Assembly: GCF_023073355.1 (NCBI RefSeq)
Contig: NZ_JADPJI010000006.1
Location: forward strand, 372,001-436,000
Direction: 5' to 3'
Source of the DNA: Bradyrhizobium sp. 199
GTDB lineage: Bacteria; Pseudomonadota; Alphaproteobacteria; Rhizobiales; Xanthobacteraceae
Length of the DNA stretch: 64,000 bases
Part shown: one piece after another, positions 40,707 to 46,043 of the stretch
How positions within the stretch are numbered: position 1 is the stretch's first letter
Layout: each line of letters begins with the position of its first letter
Notes under the pieces: model-generated
What the model saw: the letters and a program-made list of their open reading frames with translations, nothing else
The model's database searches: none
Told to the model about the DNA's origin: nothing
Program-made: the position numbers and the translations under genes

Positions 40707-42644
40707 TTGAACGGCGTCACCCCCGACCCGTCAGACCCGATCCGCAACAGCGACGCTCTGTCGCGGCTGAAGCTGGCGCAGGCCCTCGACCGGGCCACCT
40801 ATGCCATCGCGTGGGAGCGTGCCTGGCCAAATCTGGCGCGGCTTCTGACCGTCGTCGGCCTGTTCCTGGTGGTGTCCTGGGCCGGCCTCTGGCTCGTGCT
40901 GCCGTTCATCGCCCGTGCCATCGGTCTCGTCGTTTTCGCCGCTATCGCAATCGCCGTCCTGTTGCCCCTGATTCGCTTCCGCTGGCCGAGCCGCGAGGAG
41001 GCGCTGGGCCGGCTCGACCGTGGCTCCGGCATCCGTCACCGCCCGGCGACGACGCTGACCGACACGCTATCCTCACAGGATCCGGTGGCACGGGCGCTGT
41101 GGCAGGCGCAGCGCGAGCGGACGCTGGCCTCGCTCAAGCGCATCCGCGCCGGTCTGCCCCAACCGCGGCTCGCGCTCCATGATCCCTGGGCGCTGCGCGC
41201 GCTGGTCATGGTCATGCTGGTTGCGACCTTCTTCGCCGCCGGCGACGAGCGCGCGATGCGGCTCGGTGCCGCCTTCGACTGGAACGGCGTGCTGGCGCCG
41301 CCGAATATTCGCGTCGATGCCTGGGTCACCCCGCCGATCTACACCGGCAAACCGCCGGTCATCCTGTCGGCCGCCAATAAGGAGGCCGCCGCGCTGCCGG
41401 CTTCAGGCCCGCTTGCCGTTCCCGCAGGCTCGACCCTGATCGTGCGCTCCTCCGGCGGCAGTCTGGATGTCGCCGTCTCCGGCGGCCTCAAGGAAATCGC
41501 TCCCGCGGAGGCCGCACCCAAGGGCACCAACGAGAAGCATTTTGCCATCACCGCTGACGGCACCGCGCGTGTCCGCGCGCCCTCCGGCCAGCCGCAATGG
41601 GCGTTTGCGGCCACGCCGGACCGTGCGCCGACGATCGCGCTCGCCAAGGATCCCGAGCGCCAGGCGCGCGGCGGGCTGCAGCTCTCCTACAGGATCGAGG
41701 ACGATTACGGCGTCACCGGCGCGGATGCGCACATTGCCTTGCGCCCTGCCGAGGCCAAAGATGGCAGCAAGGAGACCGACGGCAAGGCCGCGGCGCGGCC
41801 GTTGTTCGAGCCGCCGCAATTTCCGCTCGTGCTGCCGAACGCGCGCACCCGCAACGGCGTCGGCCAGACGGTGAAGGACCTCAGCGAGGACCCCTATGCC
41901 GGCGCCGACGTCACGCTGACGCTGACCGCCAAGGACGAGGCCGGCAATGAGGCCAAGAGCGAACCCTTCAACATGCGCCTGCCCGAGCGTCTGTTCACCA
42001 ACTCGCTCGCGCGCGCGCTGATCGAGCAACGCCGCATCCTCGCGCTCGACGCCAACAGGAATTCCGACGTCTACACCGCGCTCGACGCGCTGATGATCGC
42101 GCCCGAATTGTTCACGCCGGATGCCGGCTGCTATCTCGGCCTCCGGAGCCTCGCGAGCCAGCTCGAGGCTGCCCGCACCGACGTCGCCCTGCGCAATGTC
42201 GTGGCGAGCATGTGGGCTTTCGCGGTCACCATCGAGGACGACGGTGTTGCCGGCAGCGTCAACGCCGCGCTGCGCTCGGCGCAGGACGCGCTCAAGGCCG
42301 CGCTGGAACGCGGTGCCGGCGAGGACGAGCTCAGGGTCCTGACGCAGAAGCTGCGGGAGGCCATGGCCGGCAAGGTGCGCGACGTCGCCCGGCGCGCCGA
42401 GCAGAATCCGCTCGGGGCCCGGCAGCCGTTCCCCGCGGAGGTGCAGCTCATCCTCGACAAAGCGATCGAGCTGCGGCAAAAGACCCAGCATGCGACGCCC
42501 GAGCAGCTCGCAGAGCTGGCGCAGCAGCAGGACGTCTTGCGCGAGCAGCTTCAAGCCTACCGGAAGTCGGCGAACAGCCGTGCCAACAAGGCGGTGGACG
42601 ACAAGACCAACCAGTTTACGCGGGACCGGAAATGCGGAAGCTAG
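40707..42644 (+). CDS. DUF4175/TIGR02302-family membrane protein, N-terminal part of a split gene
   Basis: A 645-residue protein. Residues about 24-45 and 55-80 form two transmembrane helices (LARLLTVVGLFLVVSWAGLWLVL; LVVFAAIAIAVLLPLI), and a third lies at about 165-180 (LRALVMVMLVATFFA). A long periplasmic beta-rich region (PPIYTGKPPVIL...) and a helical tail follow. This matches the N-terminal two-thirds of DUF4175/TIGR02302 proteins, which I recall as single chains of roughly 850 residues in alphaproteobacteria. Here the frame stops at 42644 and the remaining part continues in another frame at 42632. The start is TTG 40707 with GGAG seven bases upstream. Function of the family is unknown; envelope location is expected. 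Confidence 0.8.
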   Translation: MNGVTPDPSDPIRNSDALSRLKLAQALDRATYAIAWERAWPNLARLLTVVGLFLVVSWAGLWLVLPFIARAIGLVVFAAIAIAVLLPLIRFRWPSREEALGRLDRGSGIRHRPATTLTDTLSSQDPVARALWQAQRERTLASLKRIRAGLPQPRLALHDPWALRALVMVMLVATFFAAGDERAMRLGAAFDWNGVLAPPNIRVDAWVTPPIYTGKPPVILSAANKEAAALPASGPLAVPAGSTLIVRSSGGSLDVAVSGGLKEIAPAEAAPKGTNEKHFAITADGTARVRAPSGQPQWAFAATPDRAPTIALAKDPERQARGGLQLSYRIEDDYGVTGADAHIALRPAEAKDGSKETDGKAAARPLFEPPQFPLVLPNARTRNGVGQTVKDLSEDPYAGADVTLTLTAKDEAGNEAKSEPFNMRLPERLFTNSLARALIEQRRILALDANRNSDVYTALDALMIAPELFTPDAGCYLGLRSLASQLEAARTDVALRNVVASMWAFAVTIEDDGVAGSVNAALRSAQDALKAALERGAGEDELRVLTQKLREAMAGKVRDVARRAEQNPLGARQPFPAEVQLILDKAIELRQKTQHATPEQLAELAQQQDVLREQLQAYRKSANSRANKAVDDKTNQFTRDRKCGS

Positions 42645-43792
42645 CACGCGTGCCAGTCTTGAAGGCGATGTCGATCGCCTGTCTCGTCGTCCTGTTGGGA
42701 GGCGTTCCCCGCGTCGCGGCGCAGCAGGATCAGGACCCCGATGCGCTGCTCGACAGCGCGGAAAAGGCGATGCAGGATTCCGGCGACAGCCTCAGGCAGA
42801 AGGAGTCCGGGAAGAGCCTGAACAACCAATCCGACGCCATTCAGAAGCTCGAGGAATACAAGCGCGCGACGGAGAGAAGCCAATCTTCCAGCCGCGATCG
42901 TTCCGTCATCACGCAGCGGGATCTGGACGATCTGTTGCGGCAGATCGAGAAGGCGGCGCGCGAGGGCAATAAAGAGGCTGCGCAGCGCATGCTCGAGCAG
43001 CTCGCGCAGATCATGGAAAATCTCCAGATGGCGCAGCCTGGGCAATCCGGCGAGAGCGAGATGGAGCAGGCGCTGAACGAGCTCAGCGACATGATCCGCA
43101 AGCAGCAGCAATTGCGCGACAAGACATTCAAGCAGGGGCAAGACTCCCGGCGTGACCGCTCGCGCGGCAAGCAGGGCGATCAGTCGATGTCGGACCTCCA
43201 GCAGGATCAGCAGTCGCTGCGCGACCGCCTGAAGAAGCTGCAGGACGAGCTCGCCAAGCGCGGCCTCGCGCAGAAGGGACCAAAGGGTCAGAAGGGCCAG
43301 CAGGGTCAACAGGGACAGCAGGGACAGAAAGGCCAGCAGGGCGACCAGGGCCAGAACGGCGATCAGGACGGCGACGACGGCGATGACGATGGCAGCCTCG
43401 ACACCGCGGACGGCGCCATGGGCGATGCCGGTTCAAAACTCGGCGAGGGCAATGCCGACGGGGCCGTGGACTCGCAGGGCAAGGCACTCGACGCGATGCG
43501 CAAGGGCGCGCAGAAGATGGCCGAGGCGATGCAGCAGGGCGATGGCGACGGGCAGGGCGATGGTCCCGGCAACCGGCCAGGCCGTCAGCAGAGCGGCGGC
43601 AATCAGACCGATCCGCTGGGGCGTCCGCTTCACGGCCGTGATCTCAGCGACGACTACTCTGTCAAGATCCCCGGCGAGATCGACGCCCAGCGCGTCCGCC
43701 GCATCCTCGAAGAGCTCCGCCGCCGCCTCGGCGACAGCTCGCGCCCGCAGATCGAGCTCGATTACATCGAGCGGCTGCTGAAGGATTTTTGA
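42632..43792 (+). CDS. DUF4175/TIGR02302-family C-terminal part, with own signal peptide and collagen-like tract
   Basis: A 386-residue protein overlapping the upstream gene by 13 bases in a different frame. Residues 1-30 form a signal peptide or anchor (KAMSIACLVVLLGGVPRVAA). Residues 93-175 carry the family's helical motif (VITQRDLDDLLRQIEKAAREGNKEAAQRML, then ENLQMAQPGQ and MEQALNELSDMIRKQQQLRDKTFKQGQD). A Gln/Gly tract with Gly-X-Y periodicity covers about 216-243. The C-terminal motif is IPGEIDAQRVRRILEELRRRLGDSSRP...LDYIERLLKDF. Two internal segments, 38-81 and 255-300, are similar to each other (LDxAxxAMxDxGxxL). The upstream frame of the second ORF is not used. Confidence 0.8.
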   Translation: MRKLARVPVLKAMSIACLVVLLGGVPRVAAQQDQDPDALLDSAEKAMQDSGDSLRQKESGKSLNNQSDAIQKLEEYKRATERSQSSSRDRSVITQRDLDDLLRQIEKAAREGNKEAAQRMLEQLAQIMENLQMAQPGQSGESEMEQALNELSDMIRKQQQLRDKTFKQGQDSRRDRSRGKQGDQSMSDLQQDQQSLRDRLKKLQDELAKRGLAQKGPKGQKGQQGQQGQQGQKGQQGDQGQNGDQDGDDGDDDGSLDTADGAMGDAGSKLGEGNADGAVDSQGKALDAMRKGAQKMAEAMQQGDGDGQGDGPGNRPGRQQSGGNQTDPLGRPLHGRDLSDDYSVKIPGEIDAQRVRRILEELRRRLGDSSRPQIELDYIERLLKDF

Positions 43793-43941: not shown

Positions 43942-44316
43942 CTACCCGTTCTTCGCCGCGAGGGCGTCCGCCACCGCCGTGCGGATGTCGGCGACCGAGA
44001 ACGGTTTTGTCACGACGTCGTGCACAAGCGCATTCAGGTTCGAGGCGCGCTCGCGCTGGTCGGCAAAGCCGGTCATCAGCAAGATGGTCAGATCAGGGAA
44101 ATCGCGCGCGGCGGAGAGCGCCAGCGCGATACCGTCCATGATGGGCATCTGGATGTCGGTGAGCAGAAGGTCGAAGGCGCCGCCTTCGCGGGTCAGGATC
44201 TCCAGCGCCTCGGCACCGTCCTGCGCGGTGACGGTCTCGTGGCCGTCCATGGCGATGGCGCGCGCGACCAGCGTGCGCATCGAATCCTCGTCATCGGCGA
44301 TCAGGATTTTCGGCAT
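43942..44316 (-). CDS. cpdR: Single-domain response regulator CpdR
   Basis: A 124-residue receiver domain with no output domain. Acidic pocket Asp8-Asp9, phospho-acceptor Asp54 in LLLTDIQMPIMDG, the Thr in LLMTGFAD and Lys in VTKPFSVADI are all present. The sequence closely follows alphaproteobacterial CpdR, which in Caulobacter and Sinorhizobium is phosphorylated through the CckA-ChpT relay. In its unphosphorylated state it recruits ClpXP to the pole to degrade CtrA and other cell-cycle proteins. It is a stand-alone gene, as usual. It lies upstream of the zinc-ribbon gene's terminus in the same orientation. Confidence 0.9.
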   Translation of the reverse strand: MPKILIADDEDSMRTLVARAIAMDGHETVTAQDGAEALEILTREGGAFDLLLTDIQMPIMDGIALALSAARDFPDLTILLMTGFADQRERASNLNALVHDVVTKPFSVADIRTAVADALAAKNG

Positions 44317-44352
44317 GGGACGAACCCTCCCGTGCGGGACTCTACAAGTTAA

Positions 44353-45231
44353 TTATACGCTGCCGCCGGCGATGTCGCGCCGGTTGAAGAAGCGAACGTC
44401 GATATTGCGGCCCTCGGGCGGCGGCGAGGCGAGCCGAGAGCGGAAGAAGGCGCGCTCGCCGGGCCGCAGCACGGTCTGCTCCAGCACCGAGTTCCAGGCG
44501 TAGATCTCCGCTCCTTGCGCGTCGCGCACGGCGAAGCGCAGCCGCGGGATGTCGAGTGGCTTCTTGCCCTCGCCGACGATCACGCCCTCGATCACCAATA
44601 CCTGCTTACCGTCCACGGTCTCACTGGAGAGCTTCACGTCCTTAAAGGCGAGGCCTCGCAGGTTCACCTCAAGCCCGACCATCTTGTAGAAAGCCGCGGT
44701 CTGCGGCAGCAGCCGCACCATGTCGCCCCGCCAGATCACCAGCGCCAGCACCAGCGCGCCCATCGCGGCGCAGGCGGTCGGCAGCCCGAAATAGGATTTT
44801 CGCGGAGCAATGGTGGCAGCCGGGCGGCTGACCCGTGCACCGCGGCGGCCGAACAGGCCGCGGAACCAGGACTGATGCTGCGCGCCAACGACCTCCTCTT
44901 CGACCTCGCGGGCCGCCGCTGACCATTCGTCCTCGGTTTCCCTGGCCTCTTCATCGGGCCAGTCGCTGGCGATCGAGGGGCTATCGACGACAGGCGCATC
45001 AGCCATCCCGTCATCCTTGGCATAGGAGTTCCACTGCTCGGCGAGATCGGACTGGTCGTCGCCCTGGCTGGCAGCGGCCATAGCCGGGACGGACGCCTCC
45101 TCAATGGCATCCTCGGCATGGGCGATCCAGGTCTCCTTGCAGCGGGAACAGCGGACCGCCCGTCCGTTCGCCCCAAGGCTCGCAAGCTTGACGGCGTACG
45201 ATGTCATACAGTGGGGGCAGACGATATGCAT
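44353..45231 (-). CDS. MJ0042-type zinc-ribbon membrane protein
   Basis: A 292-residue protein. N-terminal zinc ribbon MHIVCPHC...AVRCSRC (two CxxC pairs, Cys5/8 and Cys28/31), then an acidic disordered stretch (about 40-120), one transmembrane helix (about 155-175, ACAAMGALVLALVIW) and a C-terminal periplasmic DUF3426-like domain (about 185-290). This build is standard for alphaproteobacterial zinc-ribbon/DUF3426 proteins next to ftsEX, with no known function. ATG 45231 opens directly on the ribbon. It is divergent from ftsE. Confidence 0.85.
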   Translation of the reverse strand: MHIVCPHCMTSYAVKLASLGANGRAVRCSRCKETWIAHAEDAIEEASVPAMAAASQGDDQSDLAEQWNSYAKDDGMADAPVVDSPSIASDWPDEEARETEDEWSAAAREVEEEVVGAQHQSWFRGLFGRRGARVSRPAATIAPRKSYFGLPTACAAMGALVLALVIWRGDMVRLLPQTAAFYKMVGLEVNLRGLAFKDVKLSSETVDGKQVLVIEGVIVGEGKKPLDIPRLRFAVRDAQGAEIYAWNSVLEQTVLRPGERAFFRSRLASPPPEGRNIDVRFFNRRDIAGGSV

Positions 45232-45383
45232 GGACGAGCCTTGATGCATGAACGAGGACTTGACCATGTATGCTACAGCGCGACCGTTAACGAACCGGAA
45301 ACCATAACGGCGGCAAAACCCGTTGATCGCGTATGGCGGAGCGCAGCAGTGCGACCCGCGCCCCCTCTCGAACGGAGCTGAGC

Positions 45384-46043
45384 TTGGTTCGGTTCGAAAA
45401 TGTCGGATTGCGTTACGGTCTGGGGCCGGAGATTTTGCGCGACCTCAGCTTCCAGATCCCGGCGCATTCGTTCCAGTTCCTCACCGGCCCGTCGGGTGCT
45501 GGCAAGACCTCGCTGCTGCGCCTGCTGTTCCTGTCGCATCGGCCGACGCGGGGCCTCGTGAATCTGTTTGGCCACGATATCTCGCAGCTCGGAAAGGACG
45601 AGATCGCCGATTTGCGCAAGCGCATCGGCATCGTGCTCCAGGATTTCCGCCTGCTCGATCACATGACGACCTATGAGAACGTCGCGTTGCCGTTTCGCGT
45701 CATGGGGCGCAGCGAGTCGAGCTATCGCAAGGAGGTAATCGATTTGTTGCGTTGGGTCGGGCTCGGCGAGCGCATGGACGCGCTGCCGCCGATTCTGTCG
45801 GGCGGCGAGAAGCAGCGCGCTGCGATCGCGCGCGCCGTGATCTCGCGGCCGCAGCTGCTGCTCGCGGACGAGCCGACCGGCAGCGTCGATCCGACGCTCG
45901 GACGCCGCCTGTTGCGGCTCTTCATCGAGCTCAACAAATCGGGCACCGCCGTCATCATCGCGACTCACGACATCGGCCTGATGGACCAGTACGAGGCACG
46001 GCGGCTCGTGCTGCACCAGGGGCGGCTGCACGTCTATGAGTAG
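45384..46043 (+). CDS. ftsE: Cell division ATP-binding protein FtsE
   Basis: A 219-residue ABC ATPase that, with FtsX, links the cytoplasm to peptidoglycan hydrolase activation at the septum. Walker A is GPSGAGKTS, Q-loop VLQDFRLLDHMTTYENVALP, signature LSGGEKQRAAIARA, and Walker B LLLADEPTGSVD. TTG 45384 with GGAG eight bases upstream gives the standard short N-terminus MVRFENVGLRYG. An ATG at 45333 would add 17 residues without a visible ribosome site. The gene overlaps ftsX by eight bases. Confidence 0.93.
   Translation: MVRFENVGLRYGLGPEILRDLSFQIPAHSFQFLTGPSGAGKTSLLRLLFLSHRPTRGLVNLFGHDISQLGKDEIADLRKRIGIVLQDFRLLDHMTTYENVALPFRVMGRSESSYRKEVIDLLRWVGLGERMDALPPILSGGEKQRAAIARAVISRPQLLLADEPTGSVDPTLGRRLLRLFIELNKSGTAVIIATHDIGLMDQYEARRLVLHQGRLHVYE

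Follow-up and report, generated by a model that had tools for sequence, protein, structure and literature searches.

In phages, mobile DNA has split the nrdA gene of Aeh1 (mobE) and topoisomerase gene 60 of T4 (mobA), and the split NrdA is a fully functional enzyme (PMC2988022). Gene 43 of Aeromonas phages is also split; the origin of this split was left open, and the two halves copurify (PMC2988022). In the mitochondrial cox2 of Campsomeris, insertional fission gave two complementary genes whose products are thought to form a heterodimer (PMC5374615). A rearrangement of another kind is DOMO, the movement of domains within specificity genes, for which recombination is the likely cause (PMC3077401). 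The locus that we describe here resembles phage nrdA, gene 60, and gene 43 in that a protein gene is divided by an insert. It differs from these phage splits in that the extra piece consists of two protein ends and a signal peptide, occurs at two sites, and lies in a bacterial envelope gene. For split NrdA, the insertion-derived tails are said to help reassembly. The likeness to DOMO lies in the alternative positions of one sequence within alleles of a gene. However, flanking repeats explain the movement in DOMO and the gene boundary is fixed, whereas here the gene boundary is found at two places. The cox2 split differs in that it is reported from one wasp genus, has a 3-kb insert with a putative nuclease, and is mitochondrial. 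No nuclease or other ORF lies between the halves of our gene, as the ORFs overlap by 13 bases or stand 3 or 10 bases apart. A split intein was also considered and rejected: Pfam and NCBIfam scans with E values up to 1 gave no intein family at the break. We found no title on this split in bacteria in a literature search that had few subscription journals within reach.

The window is a stretch of 64,000 nucleotides from Bradyrhizobium sp. 199, and all coordinates refer to it. The gene pair lies on the forward strand. Gene 1 (40707 to 42644) runs from a TTG start to a TAG stop and encodes 645 residues, the N-terminal part of a DUF4175/TIGR02302 protein that is predicted to be membrane anchored. 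Long N-terminal hydrophobic helices are seen in its sequence and in a low-confidence structure model. Gene 2 (42632 to 43792) encodes 386 residues from an ATG start, and the end of gene 1 overlaps its start by 13 bases (42632 to 42644), an overlap conserved in the group of loci that we call type A. The initial annotation had given these coordinates, the lengths, the differing frame, and the overlap, all of which were exact when we reread the window. It had also placed both halves in the DUF4175/TIGR02302 family, and profile scans agree. In the DUF4175 profile (PF13779; gathering cutoff, 27.3 bits), gene 1 matched positions 2 to 540 with 595.4 bits and gene 2 matched positions 527 to 825 with 246.9 bits, both above the cutoff. 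In the TIGR02302 profile, for which the whole-protein cutoff is 394.3 bits, gene 1 matched positions 3 to 571 (675.7 bits, above this value) and gene 2 alone matched positions 553 to 850 (285.5 bits, below it). Together, the two genes cover the whole family profile, as a single-chain member does; here there are two polypeptides, with extra modules at the break and a second export signal. The single-chain form of TIGR02302, of about 850 residues, does not occur in the window, where the ORFs have 645 and 386 residues. A profile search of the window's own genome (G000) gave no second DUF4175 match.

Gene 1 is composed of a core region common to single-chain relatives (40707 to 42416), with hydrophobic segments, a beta region, and helices in the low-confidence model, and of a module that we call the N-tail (42417 to 42581), a predicted helical hairpin ending gene 1. 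After the N-tail, a C-terminal extension reaches the stop at 42642 to 42644. Gene 2 opens with a predicted signal peptide of 30 codons (42632 to 42721), which ends in VAA with an assumed cleavage point and reads, from the ATG at 42632, MRKLARVPVLKAMSIACLVVLLGGVPRVAA. The signal peptide named in the initial annotation is present by our rule, but the sequence quoted there omitted the basic start. Next is the C-head (42728 to 42871), a predicted helical hairpin that resembles the family's C-terminal repeat. The M segment (42905 to 43171, approximate limits) consists of predicted helical hairpins; it belongs to gene 2 in the window and in type D and to gene 1 in types B and C. The remaining C-terminal part of DUF4175 (43172 to 43789, approximate limits) contains helix Q, a Gly/Gln-rich linker, a repeat hairpin, and the C-terminal end.

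The initial annotation had described family members as single chains of about 850 residues, and the 59 single chains of relatives that we cut out by script have 850 to 898 residues. The comparison across Bradyrhizobium and its relatives that had been proposed was run. A DUF4175 match was present in 262 of 265 Bradyrhizobium genomes, and the split-specific gene 2 start (the first 84 residues of gene 2) was matched in 82 of the 265. Sixty-six of these matches were strong (E at most 5e-25) and 16 were weak (about 1e-10 to 5e-7). By arrangement, the 82 split genomes comprise 66 of type A, 11 of type B, 3 of type C, and 2 of type D. Their best DUF4175 matches (n = 82; about 1e-176 to 1e-234) fall short of those of the listed full-length chains, and therefore no intact second single-chain copy was seen in the DUF4175 match table for these genomes. 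Three genomes (G006, G175, and G233, the last listed as 100% complete) gave zero DUF4175 matches on search and on repeat. When 17 genus genomes were rechecked, the match coordinates of most odd ones suggested fragments of contigs or altered frames; G193 and G243 are exceptions to this.

Other genera mostly have one chain. In the rest of the family, 46 of 47 genomes (46 genera) matched DUF4175, and 44 of these 46 had a full-length chain in a single open frame; in G309 and G326, the matches were spread over two contigs. In a sample of the class, TIGR02302 was matched in 132 of 240 genomes, and no comparable split was seen outside the window among the matches listed. Some rows of this sample, such as G574, G944, and G1054, had partial profile coverage in short frames. 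A scan of public genome contigs with the gene 1 tail gave at least 39 loci, all from Bradyrhizobium among the matches listed.

In the split loci, the extra piece is a cassette of about 400 bases that contains a hairpin and a stop for gene 1, followed by a start, a signal peptide, and a second hairpin for gene 2. We mapped the core, M, N-tail, C-head, and C-end on 141 loci (140 fetched loci and the window). In type A (65 mapped loci, including the window) and type D (2 loci), the order is core, N-tail, C-head, M, and C-end. In type B (11 loci) and type C (3 loci), it is core, M, N-tail, C-head, and C-end. The cassette is therefore found at site 1, before M, in types A and D and at site 2, after M, in types B and C, and M is present exactly once in all 141 loci. 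The 66th type A genome, G122, is outside this map and was read on its short locus. Sixty loci are free of the cassette; they comprise 53 single-chain loci from the genus, 6 outgroup loci, and G161. The last of these (L272) has a single-chain gene without the cassette, in a fragmented assembly, with the frame broken at the gene 1 end. Four arrangements at two sites are beyond what the initial annotation had seen. The alternatives that it had offered, gene fission and insertion, both hold: the gene is split, and the extra piece provides both the stop and the start, together with the export signal.

We then compared the break with uninterrupted loci. Pairwise DNA comparison of one type C locus showed the extra piece at site 2, where it replaces a short linker, and that of one type D locus showed the same at site 1. 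Neither a transposase ORF nor a clear target duplication was seen by eye in two locus pairs. Remnants of either cassette module were not seen at E<1e-6 in the 53 single chains of the genus or the 6 outgroup loci, so the refutation named in the initial annotation, relatives that carry the same stretch internally, is not borne out by these loci. No scars were seen at the single-chain junctions, which were outgroup-like by eye among 22 rows. By eye, type A differs from single-chain relatives more than type D does in the hairpin just before the cassette (42240 to 42410 of the window) and in the adjoining part of M (42905 to 43000).

The history of the split was followed in trees. In a DNA tree of lysA and ftsE (96 rows, with types A and B and single chains), split and single-chain states were interleaved; 45 of the 141 loci, including every locus of types C (3) and D (2), are outside this tree because a full lysA or ftsE was missing from the fetched stretch. 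In a tree of the core DNA (141 rows), type A formed one clade of 64, and G094, which is also type A, was elsewhere among single chains. Types B, C, and D formed one group each, with C and D next to single-chain relatives. In an AU test on core DNA (80 rows, with outgroups left out and type A randomly thinned), the hypothesis that all splits form a single clade was rejected (p-AU, 1.7e-6), and A plus B as one clade was not rejected (P = 0.66). In a tree of the C-end (94 rows, type A thinned at random), the 3' flank of each type was placed with its own lineage. In the type B loci (L101 to L109, L111, and L113), the C-terminal end of gene 2 is on a long branch (0.27), as if its evolution had been faster after the split. 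A tree of the cassette itself (30 rows, type A thinned at random) separated A and D (site 1) from B and C (site 2) with support of 91/79, a node that was not starred. At the level of sequence, we have shown that the predicted cassette modules resemble one another across the four types, lie at two alternative sites, and occur in separate gene lineages.

Protein identity between types was 49 to 62% for cassettes and 71 to 86% for cores; between type A and G094, it was 87% for the cassette and 80% for the core. Because dS between types is near 1, which is close to saturation, we used a codon-matched test that counts third-position differences at codons for the same amino acid. Between types A and B, 0.445 of these positions differed in the cassette, compared with 0.245 in the core; within type A, the values were 0.201 and 0.197. 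The pair sets for identity, dS, and third positions were random samples where large. Because third-position differences are higher in the A-B cassette than in the core, cassettes look older between types than the flanks that hold them. The data do not show a recent transfer of the cassette into G094, as the cassette dS (0.56) equals that of the flanks (0.54 and 0.55), and this equality fits inheritance as well as transfer. The rates for the C-end (Cend70) were taken without gaps and are possibly inflated by indels, chiefly in type C, and the A-G094 value alone was used.

We next looked at what the two modules resemble. Alignments of six rows each, out of 82 cassettes, had 15 invariant columns of 50 for the C-heads and 16 of 55 for the N-tails. 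On single chains, the C-head matches the C-terminal repeat hairpin, with E values as low as 1e-5 in hmmsearch and of 2.4e-4 in hhalign. The N-tail and C-head together were colinear with columns 635 to 768 of the single-chain profile, with a score of 29.1; 60 column shuffles of the pair gave a mean of 14.7 and a maximum of 22.9. In the same run, the N-tail alone scored 19.0, a marginal value equalled or beaten by 2 of the 60 shuffles, and the C-head alone scored 17.3 at a different position, a value reached or exceeded by 9 of the 60. Because the pair scores high and the single modules are weak, descent of the pair from the family's own C-terminal repeat block is likely, not proven.

The reading that we favor, and hold to be probable, is that one DUF4175/TIGR02302 envelope gene was interrupted by a gene-boundary cassette that had a single origin, shifted once, and spread by recombination and that the two products assemble in the periplasm. 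The cassette would have a single origin in the C-terminal repeat block of the family itself, and its position would have shifted once relative to M. It may then have passed between Bradyrhizobium lineages through recombination in shared flanks. The usual view of the family is of a membrane-anchored N terminus and a periplasmic remainder. Hydrophobic helices lie near the start of the single chain, whose long helical remainder we take to be outside the cytoplasm. A break in this remainder would mean that the second half needs a new export signal, which the cassette brings. The gene 1 protein would remain in the inner membrane, the gene 2 protein would be exported independently, and both would assemble in the periplasm to give the complex that relatives build from a single polypeptide. 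The N-tail and C-head may form a docking joint between the halves, and the coupled starts would favor matched synthesis of both proteins. Two separate proteins and the export of gene 2 are predictions. The strongest hint that the two proteins act together is that M occurs once, in whichever chain.

A single ancient split, dating to the root of the genus or earlier, is an unlikely course of events, though several observations suit it. A duplication would have placed M on both sides, with later loss from gene 1 in A and D or from gene 2 in B and C, and the single chains would have reverted by recombining with unsplit alleles. The cassettes are similar across all types but show deep divergence, each of the 141 loci has exactly one M, and a tandem duplication of the C-terminal part would fit. 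However, the cassette was not seen in the 46 other family genera sampled, single-chain lineages are nested among split ones and free of scars by eye in 22 rows, and a locus with two M segments is absent among the 141.

Repeated insertion, in which separate cassettes entered at least five times from an unsampled donor gene pair, we consider improbable. The splits are at five places on the core tree, the cassettes are more diverged than their flanks, and both flanks are native to each lineage, all of which it would explain. Against it, only two insertion sites are in use, and no convincing donor of the cassette was found in the family, order, and phylum samples, among the matches listed for genome contigs, or in viral contigs and plasmids. 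The C-head profile gave weak but recurrent matches to single-chain relatives: 50 of 347 genomes of the order sample were matched with E values of 0.01 or less. The top five were cassettes of the genus, and the best other match had an E value of 1.9e-6. Outside the genus, the N-tail profile gave only weak matches in samples of the family (295 genomes), the order (239), and the phylum (219), with a best E value of 8.2e-4. With a limit of E 0.05, it matched 18 of the 239 order genomes and 21 of the 219 phylum genomes, 3 of each from the genus. We read five frames with weak N-tail matches as possible donors: four were alike and from one genus, and one was unlike DUF4175 by eye. Two of the four like frames were scanned and contained a 3'-5' exonuclease and an HRDC domain, the make-up of RNase D. 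For three more weak matches, the longest frame across the locus, which is possibly the wrong one, was in no case DUF4175-like. Viral contigs gave zero cassette matches, and plasmids gave only partial matches to ordinary relatives.

The junction between the two genes is uniform within each type. In type A, a TAG stop with an ATG opening 13 bases before the gene 1 end was found in 64 of 65 loci analyzed, and the junction of G122 agrees with this pattern. Type B has TAG, 3 bases, and ATG (11 of 11 loci); type C has TGA, 3 bases, and ATG (3 of 3); and type D has TGA, 10 bases, and ATG (2 of 2). The start is coupled in 80 of 80 intact junctions. In one type A locus, L114 (G055), the frames are changed where gene 1 ends and gene 2 begins, through either a sequencing error or a decaying copy, and this locus was excluded from the junction, selection, and cassette counts. 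Signal-peptide-like features were found at 80 of 80 intact gene 2 starts versus 14 of 561 control starts. The controls were ATG starts opening at least 100 amino acids in any frame of the window, and the same simple rule (a basic start, a hydrophobic core, and an A-x-A-like end), rather than a dedicated predictor, was applied to both sets. The predicted signal peptide of gene 2 is more than chance. Over 56 type A loci, dN/dS for the signal-peptide codons was 0.386 in frame and 0.885 and 1.628 in the other frames. In type A, dN/dS was 0.125 for the N-tail, 0.085 for the C-head, and 0.097 for the last 120 codons of gene 2; these ratios were run without L082, and large pair sets were random samples. 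Judged by these ratios, the cassette modules are real protein under purifying selection in type A.

As an account of the whole group, sequencing error, a pseudogene, or a simple frameshift is refuted by conservation and selection and has next to no probability: G055 and G161 show that frame changes happen at this locus, but the junction is kept in 65 of 66 type A genomes, both halves are under purifying selection, and the extra modules are absent from the single-chain relatives examined. The initial annotation had held that this was not a simple frameshift, and G161, which is truly frame broken, has no cassette; the indel or sequencing error that it had named as a refutation fails on the 65 conserved junctions. 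A programmed frameshift giving one fused protein across the overlap is just as remote, since, although gene 2 of type A is in the -1 frame with a 13-base overlap, no canonical slippery heptamer was seen by eye in the window junction, gene 1 stops in B, C, and D with gene 2 beginning 3 or 10 bases on, and a fusion would contain an internal signal peptide.

Under our preferred reading of a single cassette in one envelope gene, the split bears on how proteins become complexes. To split a gene for a protein with an extracytoplasmic C-terminal half, a stop, a start, and an export signal are required simultaneously, along with a means of rejoining, and a single small conserved element seems to provide them all. 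It would be an unusual, testable route from one protein to a two-part complex. Because single-chain, site 1-split, and site 2-split alleles all occur in close relatives, this natural allele set offers a direct test system for proteins becoming complexes. The split also gives a handle on a conserved envelope family. More tentatively, we raise as a possibility that the cassette is a transferable protein-splitting module built from family repeats, which would make a two-component complex, one half of it freely exported, out of a membrane-tethered envelope protein, would persist in a genus as alternative alleles, and could occupy different joints since the hairpins dock the halves. Structure models had mean pLDDT values of 51.6 for gene 2 and 49.7 for gene 1, and these low-confidence models were used for helix boundaries alone. 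In them, the N-tail and the C-head are each a helical hairpin among others. No solved structure matched gene 1. A match of gene 2 to the solved structure of Circular tendon repeat protein (E 2.8e-8) was taken as a match of helix composition and set aside.

Reports on the family touch on the cell surface and on division. Deletion of a TIGR02302 gene in Azorhizobium led to exopolysaccharide overproduction and an infection defect, according to a title cited in PMC6842974. A Rhodobacter family member appears in a table of the section on CenR binding (PMC9275681), and Acinetobacter AdvA, a protein with a DUF4175 domain, is described as critical for division (PMC7481262). Because of these family reports and a nearby ftsE-like gene, a role of the pair in envelope or division work is a fair guess. 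Downstream of the pair (43942 to 46043), the window holds what we take to be a small response regulator and a zinc-ribbon protein, both on the reverse strand, and then an ftsE-like ATPase on the forward strand. This last gene (45333 to 46043), presumably ftsE-like from its sequence, begins 1.5 kb past the end of the gene pair.
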